From: a virus
Length of the DNA: 47,937 nt
Virus record (IMG/VR): IMGVR_UViG_3300042691_013717
Location: 1-47,937 of that record
Reading direction: 5' to 3' (one strand)
In this document: in pieces, positions 8,601 through 41,929 of the stretch
How positions within the stretch are numbered: the stretch's first letter is position 1
Layout: each line of letters starts with the position of its first letter
Notes under the pieces: model-generated
What the model was told of the DNA's origin: nothing
The model's input: only the letters and a program-made list of their open reading frames with translations
The model's database searches: none
Translations under genes and position numbers: made by a program

Positions 8601-10157
8601 CAGGTTCAGCAGTTCCAGATGCAGGGGCCTGAAAGGGTAACTGGGCAGACAAGAGACATTCTCCAGGTACTCGGAGGCCTTCAGGGCGCTCAGGTGCAGG
8701 GGGTGCCTCAGGTTCAGCAGTTCCAGATGGGGCCTGCGGAGAGGGTTGCCGCCGGGCAGACTCAGGTAGGGGCATTTGGTCAGCCTCAGGCGCAGCAGTA
8801 CATGTCTCCGTATATGGACGCTGTGACGGAGACCCAGAAACGTGAAGCTACTCGGCAGGCTGCGATGCAGAAGGCTGCTCGGGATGCTGCCGCTGTTCGC
8901 TCTGGAGCGTTTGGCGGAACCCGCCAAGCGGTACAGGAAGGCTTGGCTGAGGAAGCTCTTCAGCGCCAGATCGGTGAGATCGAAGCTGTCGGGAGGCAGC
9001 GGGCGTTTGAGAATGCTCAGGCTCAGTTCGAGAGAGATCGTGCTGCTTCTCTTGCCTCGCAGCAGTCTAATGTGCAGTCTGCTCTCCAGGCCGCTCTCGC
9101 TAACCAGCAGGCTGGTGTTACGACTGGCCGGGAGAACTTAGCCTCGCTTCTTGCTACCCAGCAACTTGGAACCCAATCTGGCCTACAGGCTGCTTTGGCG
9201 AATCAACAGGCGGCACAGCAGGCTGGCCTCACTCAGTACGGGACCAGGGCTGATATCCTTCGCTCTCAATCTGCCCAGGATCTCCAGGCCGCTTTGGCAA
9301 ACCAGCAAGCCGCACAGACCGCTGCCAGGGAGAACCTTGCTGCCAATCTCTCTACTCAACAGCTTGGCACTCAGACCGGGCTACAGGCTGCTCTTGCCAA
9401 TCAGCAGGCGCGTCAACAGGCTGGGCTTACGCAGTACGGGACTACGGCGGATATCCTTCGTAGCCAGTCTGCTCAGGACCTCCAGGCGGCGCTTGCGAAT
9501 CAACAGGCTGGCCTCACTGTTGGCAGAGAGAATCTCGGCGCTCGGCTGGGCGTCCAGAACCTCGCGGCACAGCAGGCTCTTCAGTCTCAGTTGGCGAATC
9601 AGCAGGCTGGGCTTACGGCTGGTCAGGCGAATCTCCAGTCTGCTCTCGCTACTCAGCAACTCGGCACCCAGGCTGGTCTCGAAGCCGCGAAGGCTTCTCA
9701 GTCCGGTGACATCGCCACTTGGCAGATGCAGTTGGATGCCATGAAGCAGGCATCGGCAGAGCAGGAAGCTGCACGCCAGCGTGACTTCACCAACAGGCTT
9801 GCAGCGATACAGCAGGCACAGTCCGGTGCCGCTGGTCTGGCTGGGCTTGGCGGTACAATGATGGGCATTCCTGGCTTGGCGCAGCAGCTTGAGCTTCAGA
9901 GGCTGGCGGCTATGCAGCAGGCTGGTGGCGCTATCGACGCTCGTACTCAGGCGGCGCTGAACATGGCGTACCAGGACTTCATCAACCAGCAGAACTTCCC
10001 GTATCAGCAGATGAACTTCTTGCAGGGCATTCTGGGTGGTGTGCCGACTGGTATGCAAGTGGAGGGTGTGCAGTTCCAGCGACCTGATACCGCTGGCGGT
10101 ATATCCTCTCTGATCGGCTCTATTCCTGGGTTGATCTCCGCAATCGGAAACAAGTAA
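5691..10157 (+). CDS. Giant repeat-rich virion protein (1488 residues)
   Basis: AGGAG sits five bases before the ATG. The first two thirds are low-complexity Gly/Thr/Pro/Ala sequence. A segment near residue 465 (SLIAASQQNPF ... GVQGLLDILQQVEQ) is repeated near 560 (SLIASSQQLPY ... GVQGLLDILQQVNQ), followed by YEPAPx repeats. Near residue 960 GVPQVQQFQM occurs twice. Residues about 1035-1110 hold YMSPYMDAVTETQKREATRQ and SGAFGGTRQAVQEG, a motif seen in large structural proteins of environmental phages. A long coiled-coil stretch with LANQQA repeats fills 1120-1340. Likely an internal or ejection protein, inferred from size, coiled coils and place between gp10-like and LPD38-like genes. Confidence 0.6.
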   Translation: MADPLQTSVQTQDIPEYLRDYRSALLNAAFQSVFSRPFLQQNFPGATWYNAGAQAPATAAPTGTPTGTAAGTATGTTPGGDTRTDLQAPEDPTAKSTSVNRIANALAMVSGQMPKILGMVWDPKTRTYIPEAYKNVVTKGMANGGTVGAANSTPEDIIKAYEELRKNMPVGLLPDLYGAEGFKNLTGGVTLPGSRNPFGGGRGPTQTSLYTTGTDFGTTLTDYNRPPDITTGTPVTVGTRVPGTGGGYGAAPGYGTGVTGVPRVTTGAGGTTAGSRPTGGSTAGGVSAAGNVSGAPAFGSPGSTNVAPIFTAGAAGTTAASQGAGGYNPTQYATDQQAAGLASLLGGQVASTNPIGPVAPPPQNLINFGDGAQLNAGLIQQALGPITVDGVTRARTPSEMTQSLAGLRTEIAASGGSTSQVDRLIQQNNQAYASGAATSPVGQATAPPPVATPPPVTTPPSAKQSQVESLIAASQQNPFVPGASVSATGNGSATVSNPTMGAISQGVQGLLDILQQVEQPTGKGAVASAVAPAASQPAPIYTPPPAADTMAVPQKQDPIQSLIASSQQLPYTPSPTPVVPEAGTTAISSPTMGGISQGVQGLLDILQQVNQSAPESTALSETFSQPEPAPSYEPAPVYEPEPVYEPEPTYEPAPLYEAAPAYEPAPVYEPAPSYEPAPQVDFGGAYDFFDQPTAASDYQMDGANGLSQFEIGSDGMVMNYKRGGVIRRVVGGPVDPAGGFSATGTNTATTQSPTPNLLGIGTAQTPASGGFGGTGGLSSLFSSLNPTAPTQNMFNPPPVYGAQRLLGFGQDFGQYRPNVGFTASNLTTSALSGAGMLPSVFSQFTDPSGRAYTAIEPQSDFGKGVSNINYATDLANRLAAMGTGLAEQVGQQGQIPSYLMSMMPSIQQMGFADAIKVAPITAPTLAAPTGVTAPSLQSFEMGAPQTVAGQSMDILGRLGGLSPALLQGVPQVQQFQMQGPERVTGQTRDILQVLGGLQGAQVQGVPQVQQFQMGPAERVAAGQTQVGAFGQPQAQQYMSPYMDAVTETQKREATRQAAMQKAARDAAAVRSGAFGGTRQAVQEGLAEEALQRQIGEIEAVGRQRAFENAQAQFERDRAASLASQQSNVQSALQAALANQQAGVTTGRENLASLLATQQLGTQSGLQAALANQQAAQQAGLTQYGTRADILRSQSAQDLQAALANQQAAQTAARENLAANLSTQQLGTQTGLQAALANQQARQQAGLTQYGTTADILRSQSAQDLQAALANQQAGLTVGRENLGARLGVQNLAAQQALQSQLANQQAGLTAGQANLQSALATQQLGTQAGLEAAKASQSGDIATWQMQLDAMKQASAEQEAARQRDFTNRLAAIQQAQSGAAGLAGLGGTMMGIPGLAQQLELQRLAAMQQAGGAIDARTQAALNMAYQDFINQQNFPYQQMNFLQGILGGVPTGMQVEGVQFQRPDTAGGISSLIGSIPGLISAIGNK
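7569..7724 (+). repeat. YEPAPx hexapeptide repeats (8.7 units, 18-nt period)
   Basis: Inside the 1488-residue gene, codons for EPAPSY, EPAPVY, EPEPVY, EPEPTY, EPAPLY, EAAPAY, EPAPVY, EPAPSY and EPAP follow without a break. Third positions differ between units, so this is an old or selected protein repeat and not a fresh DNA expansion. It probably forms an extended Pro-rich linker. Confidence 0.9.
9079..9690 (+). repeat. LANQQA coiled-coil repeats with about 62-residue super-period
   Basis: In the C-terminal third of the 1488-residue protein, LANQQA recurs with flanks such as QLGTQSGLQAA, AGLTQYGTRADILRSQSAQ and ARENLAANLSTQQ. The block from QLGTQ(S/T)GLQAALANQQA to SAQDLQAALANQQA occurs twice almost unchanged, showing a tandem duplication. 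Ala/Gln/Leu spacing predicts long alpha-helical coiled coils. Confidence 0.85.
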
Positions 10158-10165
10158 GGTGAAGC

Positions 10166-11491
10166 ATGAATCTCGTTAAGGCAGCAGACGACCTCAAGAA
10201 TCTTTCTGATCAGCAGCTTATGGTTGCTGGTCAGAACCCTGTTGCAGTGCCTCCCTATCTGGTGCTTGCGGAGATGAAGCGCCGGGAACAGTTGAGGGCT
10301 GAGTATGCCAAAGCGCAGCAGGGCCAGCAGCAGCAGCAGCCTGTGATTCAACAGGTGGCGCAGAATCTAGCGCAGGGCCAGCCTCAGCAACAGCAACCCC
10401 AGGCTCAACCCAATCCCCAGGCGCAGGGCATTATGCAGGCGATGCCGCAGGGGGCCATGGGTATGGCAGGTGGGGGCCATGTTGCTAGGTATGCGGATAA
10501 GGGCCGGGTCGTCTCGCCGTACCAGGACTACAGTGATCAGGCGCTGAGGCTTATGGGCCAGATGGCGAATGTGTCGATGGCTAGGCCCAGGCCACCGTCC
10601 TCTAACCGAGAGGCCGTCAGGGCAGAGTACGAACGGGCATACAAAATGCCTGGGATCCAGGAAAAGATCGATGCTGCCAGGGCTTTACTTGGCGCTCAGG
10701 ATTACTCGCAGTACGAAGACTACCTCAGGAGGCAGAGGGCTGAGGCTGAGGCTGGCCGTCCTGTTCTCGGCGCTGCCTTCACTGCTGGCGCTAGGGAGAT
10801 GAGCAGGTTTGATCCTCGCGAGACCTTCGCTGGGAAGCTGGCTCGTGGGATCATGGGTGCCACTGAAGCGATTCAAGCCAACAGGGAGCAGAAGAAGAAG
10901 GATATCCAGACTGCTGTTTTAGCAGAGATGGCCTTCAAGAACATTCTCCAGCAGAACAAGGCTAAAGAGATTGACCTTGCGTCTCAGATGGCCTCAAGCG
11001 AACGTGGCAACGCGATTTCCATGATGAACATGATTGAGTCCAGAATTCAGCGCGAGCAGGAGGCATTCGAGCGGGCGCAGACTGATTTCGATAGATTCAA
11101 TGCCCAGAAGAATCTTGAGACACTAAATGCCCAGTTGAACTACGTCCGAGATCTTGCCAAGATGCAGGCCGAAAAGGAGAGGACCGACAAGGAGCTTCAG
11201 AACCGGCTTGCCGTTGCCAATATCGGGGCTGGCGCTAGGAGTAGGGGTGCCTCTGATCCTAGGGTTATGCAGCTAAATGCCCTCAAGGCTCAAGAGGTTT
11301 CCTTGAAGGATACACTCAAGAGCCTTATGGACCAGAAGAAGTCCATCCCCCTTGGCCGCAGGGGTGATGCCGAGAGAGCATCGATCAACGAGCAGATCAA
11401 GAACGCGACTGCCCAGTTAAGCAAAATCCAAGCGCCATTAGCAAGTCTGAGTGGCATTAAAGTTGTTGATCTTCCCGGCGAACATGACTGA
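10166..11491 (+). CDS. Coiled-coil internal virion-type protein
   Basis: 441 residues, starting 8 bases after the giant gene. The N-terminus (LSDQQLMVAGQNPVAVPPYLVLAEMKRREQL) is a recurring opening of phage proteins in this position. It is followed by a Gln/Pro-rich linker (residues about 50-95), a Gly-rich turn (GMAGGGHVARYADKGRVVSPY) and a long helical region (about 230-420) rich in Gln, Glu and Lys. No catalytic motif. Likely packaged in the virion or ejected with DNA, by analogy with the large helical ejection proteins of podoviruses; this is inference. Confidence 0.5.
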   Translation: MNLVKAADDLKNLSDQQLMVAGQNPVAVPPYLVLAEMKRREQLRAEYAKAQQGQQQQQPVIQQVAQNLAQGQPQQQQPQAQPNPQAQGIMQAMPQGAMGMAGGGHVARYADKGRVVSPYQDYSDQALRLMGQMANVSMARPRPPSSNREAVRAEYERAYKMPGIQEKIDAARALLGAQDYSQYEDYLRRQRAEAEAGRPVLGAAFTAGAREMSRFDPRETFAGKLARGIMGATEAIQANREQKKKDIQTAVLAEMAFKNILQQNKAKEIDLASQMASSERGNAISMMNMIESRIQREQEAFERAQTDFDRFNAQKNLETLNAQLNYVRDLAKMQAEKERTDKELQNRLAVANIGAGARSRGASDPRVMQLNALKAQEVSLKDTLKSLMDQKKSIPLGRRGDAERASINEQIKNATAQLSKIQAPLASLSGIKVVDLPGEHD

Positions 11492-22374: not shown

Positions 22375-22857
22375 TCATATCTCCTTATCGATTGCGGTTA
22401 ATCCTACGGCTATCGCTGCCCAAGCATCCTTCGATACCTTGTACAGCATCCCGTTCTTCTTCGTGCAGTTCTCTCCGTACAGCGCGGAGTATCGGTCGAT
22501 GATGGCCTGCCGGATGTTTGCGTCCTTGGCTTTGGTAGCGCCGCAGAGATTCATCTTCACGTCTTTGCGGTAGATGCGGACACTCTTGATCCCGTTTGGA
22601 TCCACGGCCTGGAGTATCCGCCCTATCCACACACACGTCTCAAACACCGTGGCACCAACTGCCATACCATATGATGCAATCATTTCCACTGCAATGTCAA
22701 TACGGGTATCCTGACAAATCTCAAGCAACCGTGGTATCAACTTCTTGTTGTCCAGTATCCCGAACTCTTCGATGTACAGGTCCTTGCGTCGAATGACGGC
22801 GTAGGCAGACTGCACCGGGCCTGGATCAATTGCTAGAACTGTGTGGCCGAATGGCAT
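22375..22857 (-). CDS. RuvC-like Holliday junction resolvase
   Basis: 160 residues from ATG at 22857, chosen because AAGGA lies about eight bases upstream; ATG at 22866 has no room for an RBS. The RNase H-fold acidic residues are visible: LAIDPGPVQSAYAV (first Asp), IAVEMIASYG (Glu) and KVSKDAWAAIAVGLT (last Asp). The conserved phage segment ATVFETCVWIGRI lies between. It would cut branched DNA made during recombination and before packaging. It overlaps the recombinase gene by 32 bases, in a recombination operon. Confidence 0.8.
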   Translation of the reverse strand: MPFGHTVLAIDPGPVQSAYAVIRRKDLYIEEFGILDNKKLIPRLLEICQDTRIDIAVEMIASYGMAVGATVFETCVWIGRILQAVDPNGIKSVRIYRKDVKMNLCGATKAKDANIRQAIIDRYSALYGENCTKKNGMLYKVSKDAWAAIAVGLTAIDKEI

Positions 22858-23680
22858 CGACTGCATCCTTCGTGAATCCCGGCGAGAACTTGGCGTACAC
22901 TCGCTCGGTTATGGCAGTGCTGGAATGTCCCAGCAACTTGCTGACCTTGATCAACGGCACACCCTCACGAACCAAGTTCGTGGCAACAGAGTGCCGCATA
23001 ATGTGTGGGCTGAAGGACTTGTCCAGCCCGACTGAGTTGAGCAACTTGCGCCACCAGTAGTTGGGTGAACCGGGACGCCGACCATGCTCGTCGCTTACCA
23101 CGGGCCTGTTGTCAGCCGGATACCCAAGCTGCTGGCGTAGGTTCCACAGGTATGCGTAGAGTTCTGCATTCATAGCGACATCCAGCGCACCCTTCTGCCT
23201 ACTGTTTCTCTTGGCGCTATACCAGATCGTCTGGTTTTGGAGATCGATCTCGCCCCAAGTCAGGCGCATGATAATCCCCATCCGCTGCCCCGTGTAGCAG
23301 AGCAGCATTGCCAGAGTCTTCATCCACGGTTCGTAGTGATCAGCGCCGTCGAGAATCATTCGCATCTGCTCCCAGGTAGCGAACTGTTTCCGGGGCGCTG
23401 ACTCCTTCGGCATCGGAATGTAGGGCTGATGCGTGATCAGCCCCAGCTTCCGGCAGGTATTGATTGCCGCATTCAGTGCCTGAAGATCCCGGCGCAGGGT
23501 GCTACTGGAATACTTCGACAATCCCTTCAGTGCCTCTCGAATCACAGAGGGCTTCAGGCTTTCAATGGCAATCCCATCCAGCGCCTTCAGGTGTTCGTGC
23601 GCCAGTCTCTGTCGATTCCAGAAGAGAATGTCGTCGCTACATTCTCTCCTGTAAATCTCCCAAGCATCTCCCACCAGCAT
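22826..23680 (-). CDS. Tyrosine recombinase / integrase
   Basis: 284 residues, with GGAGG before ATG. The C-terminal catalytic domain has R133 (YTGQRMG), a Lys near 161-163, H226-x-x-R229 (HIMRHS), H252 (LLGHSS) and Y262 (VYAKF); all active-site residues are present. The N-terminal 100 residues form a SAM-like core-binding domain, without the usual arm-binding domain, so the protein is short. It may integrate the genome or resolve multimers. It is unusually placed within the annealase and resolvase operon, and no attP is evident next to it. Confidence 0.88.
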   Translation of the reverse strand: MLVGDAWEIYRRECSDDILFWNRQRLAHEHLKALDGIAIESLKPSVIREALKGLSKYSSSTLRRDLQALNAAINTCRKLGLITHQPYIPMPKESAPRKQFATWEQMRMILDGADHYEPWMKTLAMLLCYTGQRMGIIMRLTWGEIDLQNQTIWYSAKRNSRQKGALDVAMNAELYAYLWNLRQQLGYPADNRPVVSDEHGRRPGSPNYWWRKLLNSVGLDKSFSPHIMRHSVATNLVREGVPLIKVSKLLGHSSTAITERVYAKFSPGFTKDAVDAIRPHSSSN

Positions 23681-35637: not shown

Positions 35638-36240
35638 ATGGCACAAGTGAGAGTACATGCGGACGGCAAGCGGTTGAAAGTAAATGAGATATTGGCGCGG
35701 CTCACCCCAAAACAGAGGAAATTTGCTGAGGGCCTGGTGTATGGGGGCTTGAGTAAGGCTGAAGCGTATAGGCAGGCGTACGCGTGGAACGGCGTAAGCC
35801 AAAAGAGCATGCAAGTCGCAGCGGTCAGGACGGCGAAGAAGTCTAGCGTTGATCTTGCGGTAAAGGCTATGGAAGAGGAGAGAACCGCGCGATGGTGGGA
35901 AAACAAGCGCAAGCTGCAAACGTTCGTTATGGACGGGTTGACGAAAACGGCAACCGAAACAGAATCAGACATAACCCGGCTGAAAGCGTTAGAGTTAGTC
36001 GGCCGTACCAGATACGCTTCTGTGTTCGAAGAGCCACAGGCCAATGAGTCAAACGCTGCTCTATCTGGCGCCATGGTGGATACCCTGCAAGCCAAACTCC
36101 AGTGTTTACTTGGGTTTACTTCGCCTACAATAGGCGAGCCACAAACCGATGGTCCAATTTTGGACACCACTTGTGACCCTGTACCGTCAGACGATACCAC
36201 GCCTACCGACACCCCCACCGGGGGCGGGGAGGGGGAGTAG
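35638..36240 (+). CDS. Terminase small subunit-like DNA-binding protein
   Basis: 200 residues, ATG six bases after a -10-like TAGAAT with no RBS. It has ARLTPKQRKFAEGLVYGGLS and KAEAYRQAYAWNG, the helix-turn-helix pattern of Terminase_2-type small subunits, then LKALELVGRTRYASVFE. The C-terminal 45 residues are Thr/Pro/Asp/Gly-rich and disordered. Small terminases bind packaging sites and recruit the large subunit. It lies about 7 kb from terL, an unusual separation. The 3' part contains a GTCCAA-TT-TTGGAC element. Confidence 0.7.
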   Translation: MAQVRVHADGKRLKVNEILARLTPKQRKFAEGLVYGGLSKAEAYRQAYAWNGVSQKSMQVAAVRTAKKSSVDLAVKAMEEERTARWWENKRKLQTFVMDGLTKTATETESDITRLKALELVGRTRYASVFEEPQANESNAALSGAMVDTLQAKLQCLLGFTSPTIGEPQTDGPILDTTCDPVPSDDTTPTDTPTGGGEGE

Positions 36241-36509
36241 GCCGGGTGCGCTGTGCTGTGCTATGCATAGCATTCCACTCATTCCATCCCCTCCAAAAAA
36301 AACACCCCCTACCCCTTCTCTCCACCACCCTTCCACCCAACGGGACCCTGAACACAGGACACCACCCCCTTCACTTCCGGGTCCCTTGCACACACGGCAC
36401 ATTCTTGCAATATGCTCCCGACAGCAAGCGGTCCCCTCGTCCGCTCCCCCTTTTTCTATCCACACACTACCCTCTTGCACACAGCGCCACATCTCTGTAT
36501 ACTGTGTCC
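36241..36509 (+). promoter_or_regulatory. Pyrimidine-rich leader with duplicated TTGCACACA promoter elements
   Basis: No gene is seen. The + strand from about 36290 to 36350 is nearly free of G (C, A and T tracts). A 12-base palindrome GCTATGCATAGC starts about 36258, and GGGACCC/GGGTCCC form an inverted pair around 36340-36388. CTTGCACACA occurs near 36386 and 36474. The second is part of a good promoter: TTGCAC (36475-36480), 17 bases, TATACT (36498-36503), then six bases to ATG 36510. The first copy lacks a good -10 and may be an operator or relic. Confidence 0.6.
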
Positions 36510-36983
36510 ATGAATAAAAGGACAGAGCTATGGGATGAACCAGCGGCTGCGCGTATCATCGGCCTGTTCAGCGCCGTAGAAGGTCGCAATATCTACACCC
36601 ACTGGCAGATCGGACTCCCTCCATTCCTCATGTTCGGCAGGTACGGGGCCATATTCTCACTCAAGGTCAGCGCCAGAGAAATTGGCTACCTTGAGGTGCT
36701 AATCAGTTCCATGAACGCCCAAGGCTTGCCAAAGGAACTCACATGGAGCCTAGCCTTTACCGTCAGCCTGGAAGACTCTATGCGCCTGAGCGCCCTATTC
36801 TCTATCAAGGGGCCTGAGGACCAAGCCCTTCGGTTGGTGGGGTATCGACATAAAGACAATGGGAACCGTCACCTGAGTGGGTCCTGGGCTGGAGGCACGG
36901 TGAGGGTCACAGAGAAGGAATTCCAGCACCTATCTCTTTTGATCGGCGCTGTAAACGAACACGGCCTGCCGAAAGGAATCTAA
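36510..36983 (+). CDS. Two-unit member of the E-H motif microprotein array
   Basis: 157 residues, leaderless start. It contains two similar units of about 75 residues. Each starts with a short strand-like segment (ARIIGLFSAVEG; MRLSALFSIKG) and ends with a helix: AREIGYLEVLISSMNAQGLP (55-74) and TEKEFQHLSLLIGAVNEHGLP (134-154, read as T-E-K-E-F-Q-H plus LSLLIGAVNEHGLP). The same end motif occurs in the following tiny genes, so this is a fused double unit and the first of the array. No known family recognised; function unknown. Confidence 0.65.
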   Translation: MNKRTELWDEPAAARIIGLFSAVEGRNIYTHWQIGLPPFLMFGRYGAIFSLKVSAREIGYLEVLISSMNAQGLPKELTWSLAFTVSLEDSMRLSALFSIKGPEDQALRLVGYRHKDNGNRHLSGSWAGGTVRVTEKEFQHLSLLIGAVNEHGLPKGI

Positions 36984-36984
36984 C

Positions 36985-37254
36985 ATGCCCGAAGAAATCA
37001 GAGCGGCGCTACGGAGCATTCCAGACTCCATCACCCTGTCACACCTCTTCTGTCAGATGCCGAAGGAAGAAGGATTCTCGGAAGGCAGGTACACAAAAGA
37101 CAAGCTGATGGCATACGCAAGCGAGAAGTACGCCTGGATCGACAGCGCCTACATGGGCCTACACGACGCCACCACCCCAGAAGCGCAACACGCTGCCAAG
37201 CTGATCCACGCCATGAACAAAGAAGGCATGCCGGAGGAACTGAAGCATGCCTAG
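36985..37254 (+). CDS. E-H motif microprotein 2
   Basis: 89 residues, one base after the first array gene. Contains SITLSHLFCQMPKE, then DSAYMGLHDATTPEAQHAAK and LIHAMNKEGMPEELKHA. The ending T-x-E-A-Q-H-x4-L-I-x-A-M-N-x-x-G-M-P-E-E-L is the clearest single copy of the array motif. Its own start MPEEIRAAL resembles the motif's end, as if units had been split from a longer tandem protein. Confidence 0.65.
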   Translation: MPEEIRAALRSIPDSITLSHLFCQMPKEEGFSEGRYTKDKLMAYASEKYAWIDSAYMGLHDATTPEAQHAAKLIHAMNKEGMPEELKHA

Positions 37255-37277
37255 CGCCAAGGTGTTCAGCAAGGCAG

Positions 37278-37463
37278 ATGATCCACTACAACGCAATCCA
37301 TCTGTCCATATTCTACGGGGTTGACGTCTGCCCTTGCCTGGGCAGCGGCTGGAGAAGGTTTCAGAAGATCAAACACGAAGAGCATCGATACCTCTACATG
37401 TTGATCGGCGCTCTCAATAGAGACTGCGCCAGAGGAAGATTGCCGAAGGAGCTAAGCCATTGA
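37278..37463 (+). CDS. E-H motif microprotein 3
   Basis: 61 residues; AAGG three bases before ATG. Strand-like start MIHYNAIHLSIFYGVDVCPC, a basic turn SGWRRFQKIK, then EEHRYLYMLIGALNRDCARG and LPKELSH. The ending matches the array motif with a small insertion. It ends in a TTGA overlap with the next gene. Confidence 0.6.
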   Translation: MIHYNAIHLSIFYGVDVCPCLGSGWRRFQKIKHEEHRYLYMLIGALNRDCARGRLPKELSH

Positions 37464-37657
37464 TTGACCAGAACTTAATCAACATCCGGTACTTCTTCTC
37501 CCACCCCAAGACGTACTTCAAGAGAACCGCAGCGATGATGCTGGCCGACAGGATTATCCCAGGTATGCATGAGGTGATGAACGGAGAGTTCGTGGGAGAC
37601 GGAGAGACGGAACACGCCTACCGAATCTTCCTGGCGCTGGAGAGAGAGCATGATTGA
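37460..37657 (+). CDS. E-H motif microprotein 4 (TTG start)
   Basis: 65 residues, TTG in a four-base TTGA overlap, with AAGGAG eight bases before. NLINIRYFFSHPKTYFKRTA, then DGETEHAYRIFLALEREHD. The motif is present but the C-terminal G-(L/M)-P part is lost. Coupled to its neighbours by overlap. Confidence 0.6.
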   Translation: MIDQNLINIRYFFSHPKTYFKRTAAMMLADRIIPGMHEVMNGEFVGDGETEHAYRIFLALEREHD

Positions 37658-37937
37658 GCCGCTAGACCGCGCCACCAATTCTCACCTCGTAAGGCTTATG
37701 GCCGTGGAGGACATCGAGCTACTGGACGACGTTCTAATAGCAGCAGACGAATACATCATCCGTCTCTATGGCGCTGGAGAGAAGGAGCATGGGACCGGGT
37801 TCAACCCTGACGCAACCTCCCTTCCACCCTGGCTGGATCTCTCTTGGGACGCAATCGAGCTGACCCGTGGGGAACACTGGTACATATTCAACGTCTTCAA
37901 ACACTGGCGCTACACAGAGAACAACAATGGAGCATGA
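37650..37937 (+). CDS. E-H motif microprotein 5
   Basis: 95 residues with GGAGAGAGAGC before the ATG. A longer N-terminal part (RATNSHLVRLMAVEDIELLD, Pro/Trp-rich middle PPWLDLSWDAIEL) precedes TRGEHWYIFNVFKHWRYTE. The E-H pair is kept, while the helix is more aromatic. Overlaps the previous gene by eight bases and the next by eleven. Confidence 0.6.
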   Translation: MIEPLDRATNSHLVRLMAVEDIELLDDVLIAADEYIIRLYGAGEKEHGTGFNPDATSLPPWLDLSWDAIELTRGEHWYIFNVFKHWRYTENNNGA

Positions 37938-38124
37938 GATCTACGACCCTGTGGAGGCTGGAAAGATCAACAGGCTCTACTACAGTGGTCAGAACTGGTA
38001 TGACCGCCACTGCCATGTGTCCCTGGAACACCTGCGCCCCGGTTTTATCAGAATCACAACCAGGGAGCGGGAACACATCTACGCTCTATTCAGAGCCATA
38101 AACAGGCATGGAGTTGAACTGTAG
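37927..38124 (+). CDS. E-H motif microprotein 6
   Basis: 65 residues from ATG 37927; the frame is open upstream. EAGKINRLYYSGQNWYDRHC leads to EHLRPGFIRITTREREHIYA and LFRAINRHGVEL, a near-perfect match to the array ending (E-R-E-H-x4-L-F-R-A-I-N-R-H-G). The RBS is weak, so translation may be coupled to the upstream gene. Confidence 0.6.
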   Translation: MEHEIYDPVEAGKINRLYYSGQNWYDRHCHVSLEHLRPGFIRITTREREHIYALFRAINRHGVEL

Positions 38125-38386
38125 CGCCACATCGAACACAGAAGTATACTACAATGAATCAGGAGACACCGTGACCCACATCTTCGGCGGTAGATTTGTG
38201 AAATGGACATCTGGATTGATCTGGGGGATCGATAAAGACCAGATAAGACTGAACTCATTCGGCGCTTGGGCCTTAGCTACCCACTACCCCTATGTCAACT
38301 TCGTCATTCAATACAACCACAGAGAACGACAGCACTTCATGAGGATCTTTAATCTCTGCGCGGTCAAGATAGAAGAGCGCCGTTGA
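38108..38386 (+). CDS. E-H motif microprotein 7
   Basis: 92 residues. SNTEVYYNESGDTVTHIFGG and a beta-rich centre (FVKWTSGLIWGIDKDQIRLN) lead to YNHRERQHFMRIFNLCAVKI. The motif is kept as R-E-R-Q-H. It has the longest strand-rich N-terminal domain of the single-unit copies. Confidence 0.6.
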   Translation: MELNCSATSNTEVYYNESGDTVTHIFGGRFVKWTSGLIWGIDKDQIRLNSFGAWALATHYPYVNFVIQYNHRERQHFMRIFNLCAVKIEERR

Positions 38387-38420
38387 CATCGCGTTATGCA
38401 GCAAGGAAAGGAGACCGCGA

Positions 38421-38612
38421 TTGAAATACTCCGGCGCTATCGTAAAGACCGCTACCCGCCTAATGTGGGGGCCTGAATCCGAAGCCAATACCTTCTACAT
38501 GGACTCCGCTGGGATGTTCGATTCCTTCAATGAGGCCCCCATGTACGGAGACGAATGGACCCACGCAGCAAAGATCATGACTACCGAGGAGGCGTGGTTT
38601 GGGTACGAGTAG
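38421..38612 (+). CDS. E-H motif microprotein 8 (TTG start)
   Basis: 63 residues; AAGGAG seven bases before TTG 38421. SGAIVKTATRLMWGPESEAN, then MYGDEWTHAAKIMTTEEAWF. The ending E-W-T-H-A-A-K-I-M aligns with A-Q-H-A-A-K-L-I of copy 2, though the rest has diverged. Confidence 0.55.
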   Translation: MKYSGAIVKTATRLMWGPESEANTFYMDSAGMFDSFNEAPMYGDEWTHAAKIMTTEEAWFGYE

Positions 38613-38892
38613 GACAAGACAATCCAGAAGGCACCTATTTGATCCAGCGCCGGAAAAGGTTGTGGCGCTGAAGCTCACAGCCTACTTCTGTCCCCAACCA
38701 TCCGACATGCTGCTTATCCACGGCACTTGGCACGGGTGCCACAGGATCTGGGCTAAAGGAATGCGGCACTCAGATCACTTCACCCTGCACGGGCCGAACC
38801 GGGATCACCTGGGTGTTGTGTGCCGGGACAAAGAAGGCGAGTACGCGAAGACGGTACTGGAGGCGCTTGCGAGGGAATATGCCTGTATTTAG
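38599..38892 (+). CDS. E-H motif microprotein 9 (TTG start)
   Basis: 97 residues; GGAGG six bases before TTG 38599, overlapping the previous gene by 14 bases. It carries VVALKLTAYFCPQPSDMLLI, then a His/Gly-rich part and DKEGEYAKTVLEALAREYAC. The His is replaced by Tyr (E-G-E-Y), as in the first copy. More diverged. Confidence 0.55.
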   Translation: MGTSRTRQSRRHLFDPAPEKVVALKLTAYFCPQPSDMLLIHGTWHGCHRIWAKGMRHSDHFTLHGPNRDHLGVVCRDKEGEYAKTVLEALAREYACI

Positions 38893-39106
38893 AGGGAAAG
38901 AGTTTGAAGAGATAAGGTCGTGGATCTTTGAGAGCGGGGAGGATCTGTTTGTCGGCCATAGCGATGAACTTGAAGAGTACTTCATCACGACGGACTATTC
39001 TCTAGACATCTACACCAACACCACCGCAGTCGAAGCCGAGCATGCCATAAGAGTGCTAGGATGTATATCAGGCGCTTTCAAAACACAAGGAGAATCAAAC
39101 ACTTGA
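38879..39106 (+). CDS. E-H motif microprotein 10
   Basis: 75 residues from ATG 38879, GAGGG before. FRGKEFEEIRSWIFESGEDL, strands VGHSDELEEYFITTDYSLDI, then TTAVEAEHAIRVLGCISGAF. The motif E-A-E-H-A-I-R-V-L is kept. It ends in a TTGA overlap with thyX, so the array and thyX share one transcript. Confidence 0.6.
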   Translation: MPVFRGKEFEEIRSWIFESGEDLFVGHSDELEEYFITTDYSLDIYTNTTAVEAEHAIRVLGCISGAFKTQGESNT

Positions 39107-39924
39107 AGCAAATCTCTGCAAAGGTAGTAGCAGACTCTGTATCGCCTAAGGGCATCAGGCTTATCACAATGGAGTGCCAGTTCCCAAGGTTCATCCTGGC
39201 GCAAGTCAACACGCACCGTGACTTCTCCAGGAACTCCGCTTCCTCTCGCGCTATCCCAATTCACAAGCGCCTGCAAGAAGTAGAGGAGGATCCGTACATC
39301 CCTATCTACCTCGGCGCTAACCAACCTGGGATGCAGTCTGGGCCGCAGGTGTCCGTGCAGCAGAAGTGGGCGGCAGAGAATGCCTGGAAAGCTGCTGCCG
39401 CCAATGCAGTGTACTCTGCCAGGATTATGGCAAGCGCCGGTATTCACAAAGAGGTTGTGAACAGACTGCTGGAGCCTTTTCTCTGGCACAAGGCCATCAT
39501 CTCTGCGACGGAGTGGGAGAACTTCTTCTCTCAGCGCCTGAATCACGATGCCCAGCCGGAGATCAGACAACTGGCGCGGGTTATGCGGGATGCGATTGAC
39601 GCTAGCGTGCCGTTGCATCTAGCCGAAGGCGACTTCCACCTGCCCTATATCCAGCCTGAAGAACTGACCTCCGTGCCGAAGTTCACCTGCATGGCGATGT
39701 CGGTTGCCCGGTGCGCCCGTGTCTCCTACCTGAATCACGACGGCACATACAGCGTACAGAAGGACATGGACCTCTTCAAGAAGCTGAAGAGCGCGATGCC
39801 GCCGCACTTGTCTCCCTTCGAGCATGTAGCGCGTCCCATGGGGAGCAAGGATGTGCAGAAGGGGAACTTCCAGGGCTGGGTTCAGTTCCGGCACATCGTC
39901 GAAGAAGTTGCGGATATTTTGTAG
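39103..39924 (+). CDS. thyX: Flavin-dependent thymidylate synthase ThyX
   Basis: 273 residues from TTG 39103, with AAGGAG ten bases upstream and a four-base overlap with the preceding gene. The ThyX signature is THRDFSRNSASSRAIP (residues 37-52; H38, R39, S42, N44, S46 and R49 fit RHRxxSxNxxSxR with an initial T for R). Later segments include PYIQPEELTSVPKFTCMAMS and HLSPFEHVARP. It makes dTMP from dUMP using FAD, NADPH and methylene-tetrahydrofolate, and would work with the phage dUTPase. It is the last protein gene of the rightward operon. Confidence 0.9.
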   Translation: MKQISAKVVADSVSPKGIRLITMECQFPRFILAQVNTHRDFSRNSASSRAIPIHKRLQEVEEDPYIPIYLGANQPGMQSGPQVSVQQKWAAENAWKAAAANAVYSARIMASAGIHKEVVNRLLEPFLWHKAIISATEWENFFSQRLNHDAQPEIRQLARVMRDAIDASVPLHLAEGDFHLPYIQPEELTSVPKFTCMAMSVARCARVSYLNHDGTYSVQKDMDLFKKLKSAMPPHLSPFEHVARPMGSKDVQKGNFQGWVQFRHIVEEVADIL

Positions 39925-39930
39925 TGCCAA

Positions 39931-40006
39931 GCTCCCGTAGCTCAGTGGATAGAGCGGTCGCCTCCTAAGCGACAGGCCGCAGGTTCAATCCCTGCCGGGA
40001 GCGCCA
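39931..40006 (+). tRNA. tRNA-Arg (CCU anticodon), CCA encoded
   Basis: Acceptor stem GCTCCCG/CGGGAGC, D-arm GCTC-AGTGGATA-GAGC, anticodon stem GTCGC/GCGAC with loop CTCCTAA (anticodon CCU, reads AGG), T-arm GCAGG-TTCAATC-CCTGC, discriminator G and encoded CCA. All arms pair perfectly, so it appears functional. AGG codons are used often in this phage's genes, which may explain its presence. It lies six bases after thyX and before the twin terminators. Confidence 0.95.
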
Positions 40007-40156: not shown

Positions 40157-40357
40157 TTAGGCGGCAGCTTCGTCCGTATTGGGCTTGGCAGCCGGAGTGC
40201 CGTTCACTTCACCGTGCAGCCAGGACCACGGGATCCGGTACACCTTCCCAAACCGCTTGGACGGGATACGCCCGTCACGCAGCATCTTGTTCACCATAGC
40301 CTTCGAGAGATTCAAGAAGGCAGCAGCCTCAGAGATCTTAGCCAGACCGATTTCCAT
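40157..40357 (-). CDS. Excisionase-type helix-turn-helix protein (HTH_17), copy C
   Basis: 66 residues. IGLAKISEAAAFLNLSKAMV, NKMLRDGRIPSKRFGKVYRI, then PWSWLHGEV: a MerR-like winged HTH of the HTH_17/excisionase group with the pattern 'V-A-x-x-L-x-x-S ... G-x-I-P-x-x-R-x-G-x-x-x-R-I'. Such proteins bind DNA in recombination directionality or transcription control. Last of three tandem copies. Confidence 0.7.
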   Translation of the reverse strand: MEIGLAKISEAAAFLNLSKAMVNKMLRDGRIPSKRFGKVYRIPWSWLHGEVNGTPAAKPNTDEAAA

Positions 40358-40361
40358 GTCG

Positions 40362-40625
40362 TTACTCGCTTTCCTTGGAGAAGATTTCGCTCAGGGTAAT
40401 AGGCTCACGCTTGGGAGCAACCTTGCCGGAGATGGTCTCGAATGAGGTGGCACTGTCGATAAAGCGCCGGATGTCATCCATTCGGTAGCGTACTGCCTTG
40501 CCGATCCTGATGAACTCTGGACCACCACCAAACCTTCTGAGCAGCCTGATCTTCACAACGGATAGATTGAGGATCTTGGCTACTTCATTCTCTCTCAGAA
40601 GACTCTCGATTGCGTCTTTGTGCAT
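40362..40625 (-). CDS. Excisionase-type helix-turn-helix protein (HTH_17), copy B
   Basis: 87 residues; AAGGAG before the ATG. LLRENEVAKILNLSVVKIRL, LRRFGGGPEFIRIGKAVRYR and MDDIRRFIDSAT match the HTH_17 pattern with a longer tail that may mediate other contacts. Overlaps copy A by 41 bases. Confidence 0.7.
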   Translation of the reverse strand: MHKDAIESLLRENEVAKILNLSVVKIRLLRRFGGGPEFIRIGKAVRYRMDDIRRFIDSATSFETISGKVAPKREPITLSEIFSKESE

Positions 40626-40851
40626 GATTGCTCCTTGTGCGGCCTATGCCTGTTTCAGTATACAGTCTACCAGATTCGACATACTCAAGTACATCGGATT
40701 CCCTGTACCGTATTGATCCACCTAGCCGTACGAAGCGTGGTCCTCTTCCCTGGAGTCTCCATTTCCTCACGCTGGATATAGAAGCGCCGAGGATCTCTGC
40801 AACCTCTGTGTCTAGCAGGAGAGGCCTTCTGCCTGTTGATGTCTCTTGCAC
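40585..40851 (-). CDS. Excisionase-type helix-turn-helix protein (HTH_17), copy A
   Basis: 88 residues from GTG 40851, without an RBS; TAAACT six bases upstream is a possible -10, another leaderless candidate. LLLDTEVAEILGASISSVRK, WRLQGRGPRFVRLGGSIRYR and ESDVLEYVESGRLY match AlpA/excisionase HTH proteins. A tail rich in Arg/Ser follows. First of the three - strand copies. A phage-type excisionase partner for the recombinase is possible. Confidence 0.7.
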   Translation of the reverse strand: MQETSTGRRPLLLDTEVAEILGASISSVRKWRLQGRGPRFVRLGGSIRYRESDVLEYVESGRLYTETGIGRTRSNHAQRRNRESSERE

Positions 40852-41335: not shown

Positions 41336-41450
41336 TATACTCTCCATGTAGTCCGTCCATTCCAACGATGGCCACAAACATCGGGACCTCCTACAACCCT
41401 GCGGTGCAAGCCCCCTCCTTCTTCCAATGGCTAGAGGGGGTTTCGCTTTT
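41336..41450 (+). ncRNA. Candidate small RNA: extended -10 to terminator
   Basis: TGC-TATACT (41334-41341) is an extended -10 box. About 70 bases later a stem CCCCCTC (41411-41417)/GAGGGGG (41434-41440) is followed by TTTCGCTTTT, a rho-independent terminator. The ATG at 41369 gives a 33-residue frame without an RBS, so a non-coding RNA of about 100 bases is more likely. The terminator also separates it from the convergent DUF559-like gene. Confidence 0.45.
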
Positions 41451-41929
41451 CATGCCCTATTTTCCTTAATGAGCCTCTGTGCTTTGGCGAAGATGATGTT
41501 GCGAACATAAGCCACGGCGCGGCCAGTATGGTTGATCGCCATGTCGTTTGTTATGCGAATAGTCGTAATCCCGTTCCTCAATAGGGCCGAATCTCGATGA
41601 TTGTCCCGCTCGATCTGTTCTGGCGCATTGTGGTAGTCTCCGTCGATCTCAACGCACACGCCAACCGTTGGGAAGTAGAAGTCGAGGATGTATCCAAGAA
41701 CAACCTCTTGGCGCAAGAAGGGCCAACTCCTAAGCCTACTTCTTCCCAGGCGATAGGCAAACGCTGCTTCTGCCATAGTGGGTTTCAGGAGTTGCCTTCT
41801 GGCTGTTTCGAACTTCTCTGGCTTAACGCGCTGCCTGAGGTTTTCGATATTGATCAGATTACCAGGGAGATTCTTGGCTCCTGGATTGCGGGGGTTCCCA
41901 CGGGGGGTCAGTATCAAATCAATCTCCAT
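41450..41929 (-). CDS. DUF559/Vsr-like endonuclease
   Basis: 159 residues. The core TMAEAAFAYRLGRSRLRSWP, FLRQEVVLGYILDFYFPTVG and VCVEIDGDYHNAPEQIERDN matches the DUF559 PD-(D/E)XK nuclease pattern: E in the first helix, LDF Asp, ExD (EID) and the G-D-x-H segment, then ITTIRITNDMA. All expected acidic residues seem present. It is alone on the - strand between a terminator and a + strand cluster. It may be a nicking or homing-type enzyme, or act on host DNA; the target is unknown. Confidence 0.7.
   Translation of the reverse strand: MEIDLILTPRGNPRNPGAKNLPGNLINIENLRQRVKPEKFETARRQLLKPTMAEAAFAYRLGRSRLRSWPFLRQEVVLGYILDFYFPTVGVCVEIDGDYHNAPEQIERDNHRDSALLRNGITTIRITNDMAINHTGRAVAYVRNIIFAKAQRLIKENRA

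Follow-up and report, generated by a model that had tools for sequence, protein, structure and literature searches.

We describe an array of ten tiny genes in a virus of bacteria, in which a domain of about 65-95 residues has been duplicated in tandem and has since diverged, units being lost, fused or truncated one at a time. We regard the anatomy of this array and its birth-and-death evolution as nearly certain. Whether its proteins are directed at the host is evenly balanced, and we hold the overall reading, in which small proteins of a birth-and-death family act on the host and probably in counter-defence, a function that we infer, with as much doubt as confidence.

Results

The window, that is, the whole stretch of DNA analysed here, corresponds to a virus record in IMG/VR, 47,937 bases long, and the distant kin of its portal protein (about 25-43% identity) are Planktothrix phage Pag-Yong1, Pelagibacter phage HTVC023P and Roseobacter phages. 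The array occupies 36510-39106 on the + strand, its genes (g1-g10) being separated by short overlaps or gaps. An earlier note on this DNA had described ten consecutive small genes of which the first holds two fused units, and this description is correct, the genes overlapping or abutting. On the left the array is bordered by a candidate gene for the small terminase subunit (TerS; 35638..36240, + strand), which was named by its position, length and relatives and gave no match in a Pfam search; no relative of it was found in a collection of bacterial and archaeal genomes. On the right lies thyX (39103..39924, + strand), which encodes a flavin-dependent thymidylate synthase (PF02511, E 7.6e-15). 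We chose the starts of g1-g10 as likely ones from Shine-Dalgarno sites and orthologs. The TTG starts, said in the note to be frequent, are few in fact (g4 and g8), and the probable start codon of g7 and g9 is GTG.

Five units form one significant family, with E-values down to 1e-5 between paralogues in BLAST. They are the two halves, g1a and g1b, of g1 (36510..36983, 157 aa), together with g2 (36985..37254, 89 aa; HMM E 1e-28; orthologs in contigs L003 and L096), g3 (37278..37463, 61 aa, a core member cut at its N-terminus) and g6 (37927..38124, 65 aa; HMM E 3e-19). In 23,198 six-frame ORFs the members were cleanly set apart from the rest by a profile built on their C-terminal segments, and a leave-one-family-out HMM recovered the tested units at E 5e-11 to 0.002. 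With the full-length family HMM all members scored at E <= 1e-11, while the best of some 2,300 decoys, made by shuffling or reversal, reached E 0.09.

The same full-length HMM search gave no significant E-value for g4 (37460..37657, 65 aa, TTG start), g5 (37650..37937, 95 aa), g7 (38171..38386, 71 aa, GTG start after AGGAG), g8 (38421..38612, 63 aa, TTG start), g9 (38662..38892, 76 aa, GTG start) or g10 (38879..39106, 75 aa). For g7, which has an ortholog in L096, the start at 38171 is more likely than the alternative at 38108. We dropped p-values from shuffled sequences because the profile begins with Met and is thereby biased toward real proteins, and used 1,542 natural ORFs similar in size as the background. 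Against these, p was 0.0006 for g7, 0.003 for g5 (0.0006 for its orthologs) and g10, 0.006 for g9, 0.011 for g4 and 0.055 for g8, g4 and g5 thus ranking as weak family members. In hhalign the core aligned to g7 with E 6e-4, to g5 with 9e-4 and to g10 with 4e-3, and g7 aligned to g8 with E 1e-3, all at low hhalign probabilities. Relatives contain clear paralogues of both g7 and g10, those of g7 being x13 and x14 of L096 (E about 1e-6). As judged from these comparisons, all ten genes are likely to be paralogs, and this is proven for g1a, g1b, g2, g3 and g6. The claim of ten related copies, which was to be checked by profile comparison of the C-terminal segments, therefore stands at significance for these five units; g4, g5 and g7-g10, taken one by one, are too weak in E-value to carry it. 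The recurring word CAGCGCCACA was also considered as a signal of the array and was dropped, its near-matches being scattered across the whole window.

The C-terminal motif that the copies had been said to share is of two kinds. Its helix part (T-x-x-E ... L-I-x-A-I-N) belongs to the protein, whereas the GLPxEL tail doubles as the Shine-Dalgarno sequence of the next gene: the codons for G-L-P-K-E-L or G-L-P-K-G-I, for example CCG AAG GAA CTC or CCG AAA GGA ATC, contain AAGGA or GGAG 6-9 nt before the following start. A Shine-Dalgarno-like core lies at most 18 nt from the start at 33 of 35 junctions in three phages, the background being 41 out of all 101 start codons of the window array, real starts included. 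Since the following gene has its ribosome site in this tail, a duplicated unit would bring with it a translation signal for whatever follows, and the array genes are probably translationally coupled. A promoter-like sequence, TTGCAC-N17-TATACT (36475..36503, + strand), ends 6 nt before the start of g1 in a near-leaderless arrangement; it is the single match to this pattern on the + strand of the window and is kept at the equivalent place in L003 (8838) and L096 (842). A scan with the plain promoter consensus gave no more matches than chance. The array genes probably form one operon read from this site, and it is from this one promoter-like site that early expression is supposed.

Homologous arrays of varying copy number are found in related phages, in agreement with the proposal of a repeatedly duplicated and quickly evolving domain: the window has 10 genes, L003 (TerS 77% identical) nine, and L096 at least 17. 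The array of L003 has a one-unit g1 and an extra g10-like gene, and lacks g3 and g7, while that of L096 includes six further units not in the window. In L096 g1a and g1b are separate genes (877-1140 and 1128-1379), and a 2-nt difference joins their frames in the window, so g1 is a recent fusion. L096 also has a full-length g3 of 90 aa (2146-2418). In the window, the start of a lost unit precedes g3 and is joined out of frame, at about 37247-37290, to a g3 that lacks its first third, and g3 is thus what a deletion left behind. Scans of viral contigs and phage records with single proteins reached little of this: g1 gave nothing usable, g2 found the contig of L003 alone, and g9 found that contig and L096 alone.

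We estimated dN/dS among the window, L003 and L096 by the simple Nei-Gojobori method, on genes that are short. The values for the array genes are mostly 0.3-0.7 (g2, 0.41), reaching 1.1 for g4, whose orthologs are 48-68% identical, as compared with 0.13-0.22 for TerS and 0.07 for thyX. The array genes thus look translated and constrained, though less than their neighbours, and with dN/dS mostly below 1 there is no support for diversifying or positive selection among these three phages. Far below the rest of the array are g8 (0.03-0.20; 94-95% identical between phages) and g9 (0.10-0.21; 91-95% identical), hinting at a fixed and different role for these two. Between the window and L003, dS is uneven over 35638-39924 (about 1.3 for TerS, about 0.26-0.61 for the array genes and 0.14 for thyX), which suggests mosaic exchange.

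A different array of tiny genes, hereafter type 2, is present in L083, L084, L097 and L104, and is flanked by TerS and thyX wherever both can be seen. Where the array is long enough to be counted, it comprises about 12-17 genes, whose proteins carry the tail E-x-x-x-L-L-R-L-Y-D-x-Q-x4-Q-x-x-I. Because the core profiles of type 1 (the window, L003 and L096) and type 2 do not align, we do not claim from their cores that the two kinds of unit share an origin; the link is confined to the family of g10, since the two array types end in homologous genes. A profile of the type-1 g10 matched the genes that end the type-2 arrays with E 6.5e-5 (L084) to 0.003, and hhalign of g10 with them gave E about 1e-7. 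Both types occur in one metagenome, 3300035703 (L096 of type 1, L104 of type 2). A type-2 unit searched against phage records found nothing. Upstream in type-2 arrays there is a repeat element in which a GCGTAGC..GCTACGC inverted repeat is followed by a ATAGACACCAT..ATGGTGTCTAT inverted repeat and then by GG and a start codon (L097 9845-10179, L084 near 103, L083 near 4480, L104 near 6340).

Other contigs have no array at all. L007, the portal and TerL of which are 91% and 86% identical to those of the window, matches neither array nor thyX, and its interval between TerS and TerL holds a C5 DNA methylase gene (PF00145, E 1.5e-31; 10051-11061) and other genes on the - strand. Among loci collected through ThyX, L086 and L088-L090 have thyX and no array (L087 was left out). 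The locus, with TerS on one side and the thyX, HTH and TerL genes on the other, is replaceable; it is accessory and rapidly exchanged, which is a trait of early takeover and counter-defence panels. The contigs L103 (46,739 bases) and L106 (53,261 bases) stop just after TerS and start just before or inside TerL, and such ends fit an assembly break at a variable region. A packaging end next to TerS is the alternative cause, considered because L005 and L106 stop at identical bases. Just after TerS, at 36260-36290 of the window, there is a perfect palindrome, GCTATGCATAGC, followed by ATTCCAC/ATTCCAT repeats and kept in relatives; several contigs, L005 and L106 included, stop at or near it, and this stretch may mark a packaging site or the border of the variable region.

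AlphaFold2 models made from family alignments gave the order E-H-E-E-E-H for type 1 (an ortholog of g1b; pLDDT 84.7, pTM 0.69) and E-H-E-E-E-H-H for type 2 (pLDDT 88.1, pTM 0.77). The array domain is accordingly predicted to run strand, short helix, three strands and C-terminal helix, and the two types, compared by element order alone, are predicted to have a like succession of strands and helices despite their unrelated core sequences. A Foldseek search against viral models found nothing at E <= 0.001 for either type. In comparison with PDB chains the best Z was 4.2 and 4.7 for the two models and none reached 5; Z below 5 is a range common among unrelated folds, and the absence of a match excludes no fold. 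PipX was listed for both models (Z 4.2 and 3.9) and the NusA-binding YkuJ for type 1 (Z 3.2 and 3.0), at scores that many unrelated folds share. That the domain belongs to no named family, as had been supposed, is borne out by PHROGs, Pfam, NCBIfam, PADLOC and PDB sequences, in which there was no significant match (the lowest E was 0.02 in PHROGs and, for a single type-2 member, 0.016 in Pfam). For the ten window proteins Pfam gave no family at E <= 1, and for 16 type-1 members it gave ATE_N alone, at E 0.18. The calculated pI ranges from 4.3 to 10 among the copies, and the idea of acidic DNA mimics was dropped on this account.

Discussion

The array would be best understood as a panel of small diversified proteins that act early against host factors or defence proteins, each copy perhaps fitted to its own target or variant of a target. 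The role in host targeting or anti-defence that the earlier note had put forward fits the position of the array, its turnover and the alternative genes found in the same interval, although known anti-defence and host-takeover proteins include none alike in sequence and no convincing fold match. The note had also offered parts of one hetero-oligomer as a possibility. We do not favour it: genes were gained, lost, fused and truncated independently, and because pI varies so widely within one family of small domains, different targets are favoured over a single oligomer.

Other explanations have to be weighed against this. Mostly neutral duplication, with g8 and g9 alone functional and the rest a decaying expansion under weak selection, would account for dN/dS values of 0.3-1.1, the truncated g3 and the fused g1, but we consider it rather unlikely, since most pairs are clearly below 1, the frames are open in three phages, the ribosome sites are retained at nearly all junctions, and a longer second array type is maintained at this locus. 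It is unlikely, too, that the proteins are small modulators of transcription or host regulation, such as RNA polymerase binders, rather than counter-defence proteins; PipX and YkuJ among the structural matches point that way, but Z-scores of this size are common for the tool, many unrelated folds score equally, and sequence gives no support.

The location of the array, directly 3' of TerS on the same strand with TerL and portal downstream, could also suggest a part in packaging or morphogenesis, as small subunits that assist assembly or the terminase and perhaps form one hetero-oligomer. Copy number and content, however, vary freely among phages with similar structural genes, units can be truncated, and L007, so close to the window in portal and TerL, does without the array, which makes this quite improbable. 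Least of all do we expect a cluster for toxin-antitoxin function or superinfection exclusion: the genes are small, overlap and share a strand, as they would in such a cluster, but there is no paired pattern, one family follows in a run in place of alternating partners, and Pfam, NCBIfam and PADLOC gave no match. A host-directed panel hence remains our preferred reading.

We found no description of such arrays in phages in the open literature searched, and several known systems resemble this one in part. The multigene families (MGFs) of African swine fever virus are tandem paralogs whose copy number varies by isolate and which are tied to host interaction; they share with the array the tandem paralogs and the varying number, but belong to a eukaryotic virus, encode larger and unrelated proteins and follow another expression logic. 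The host-takeover module of SPO1 is likewise a dense run of many small, early, host-directed phage genes, but these are not paralogs, the phage is far larger, and there is no sequence match to the array proteins. In T6, segmental amplification driven by SegB changes the copy number of anti-defence loci (PMC13096335), so that copy-number change of counter-defence genes does occur in a phage; those events are recent and driven by a homing endonuclease, whereas the array copies are old and diverged and no such endonuclease was seen in the array. The closest precedent that we found is AcrID1, whose homologs are clustered in rudiviruses (SIRV1, SIRV2, SIRV3), where the clustering has been attributed to gene duplication and a possible diversification of function (PMC11065993). 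As there, small paralogs are clustered in one viral genome, but AcrID1 is a proven family of CRISPR inhibitors from archaeal viruses and the array proteins have no Pfam match.

Should the copies prove to act in counter-defence or takeover, a single locus would yield dozens of new small proteins together with their natural variation, a clear test of how phages diversify such proteins by duplication of a unit, complete with the ribosome site for the following gene, and then by divergence, deletion or fusion, and a counterpart in bacterial viruses of viral multigene families and AcrID1 clusters. If their function differs, the architecture still documents rapid turnover of arrays in phages. More tentatively, and with doubt prevailing, the locus might be the phage counterpart of the multigene families of eukaryotic viruses, in which a self-propagating unit, the domain plus the next ribosome site, lets a repertoire of at least ten host-directed proteins be built, reshuffled and lost, and in which two unit families unrelated in sequence and similar in scaffold compete for one locus in a single environment.

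Several further genes were noted in the window. A tRNA-Arg gene (anticodon CCT; 39931-40006, + strand) follows directly after thyX, and a gene for a DUF559-type nuclease-like protein (41450-41929, - strand; PF04480, E 1.3e-14) lies between the array region and TerL. A tyrosine integrase gene is found at 22826-23680 (PF00589). At 40157-40851, on the - strand, three adjacent small HTH_17 (excisionase-like) genes form a small run of paralogs, and runs of similar look are present in L007 and L102.
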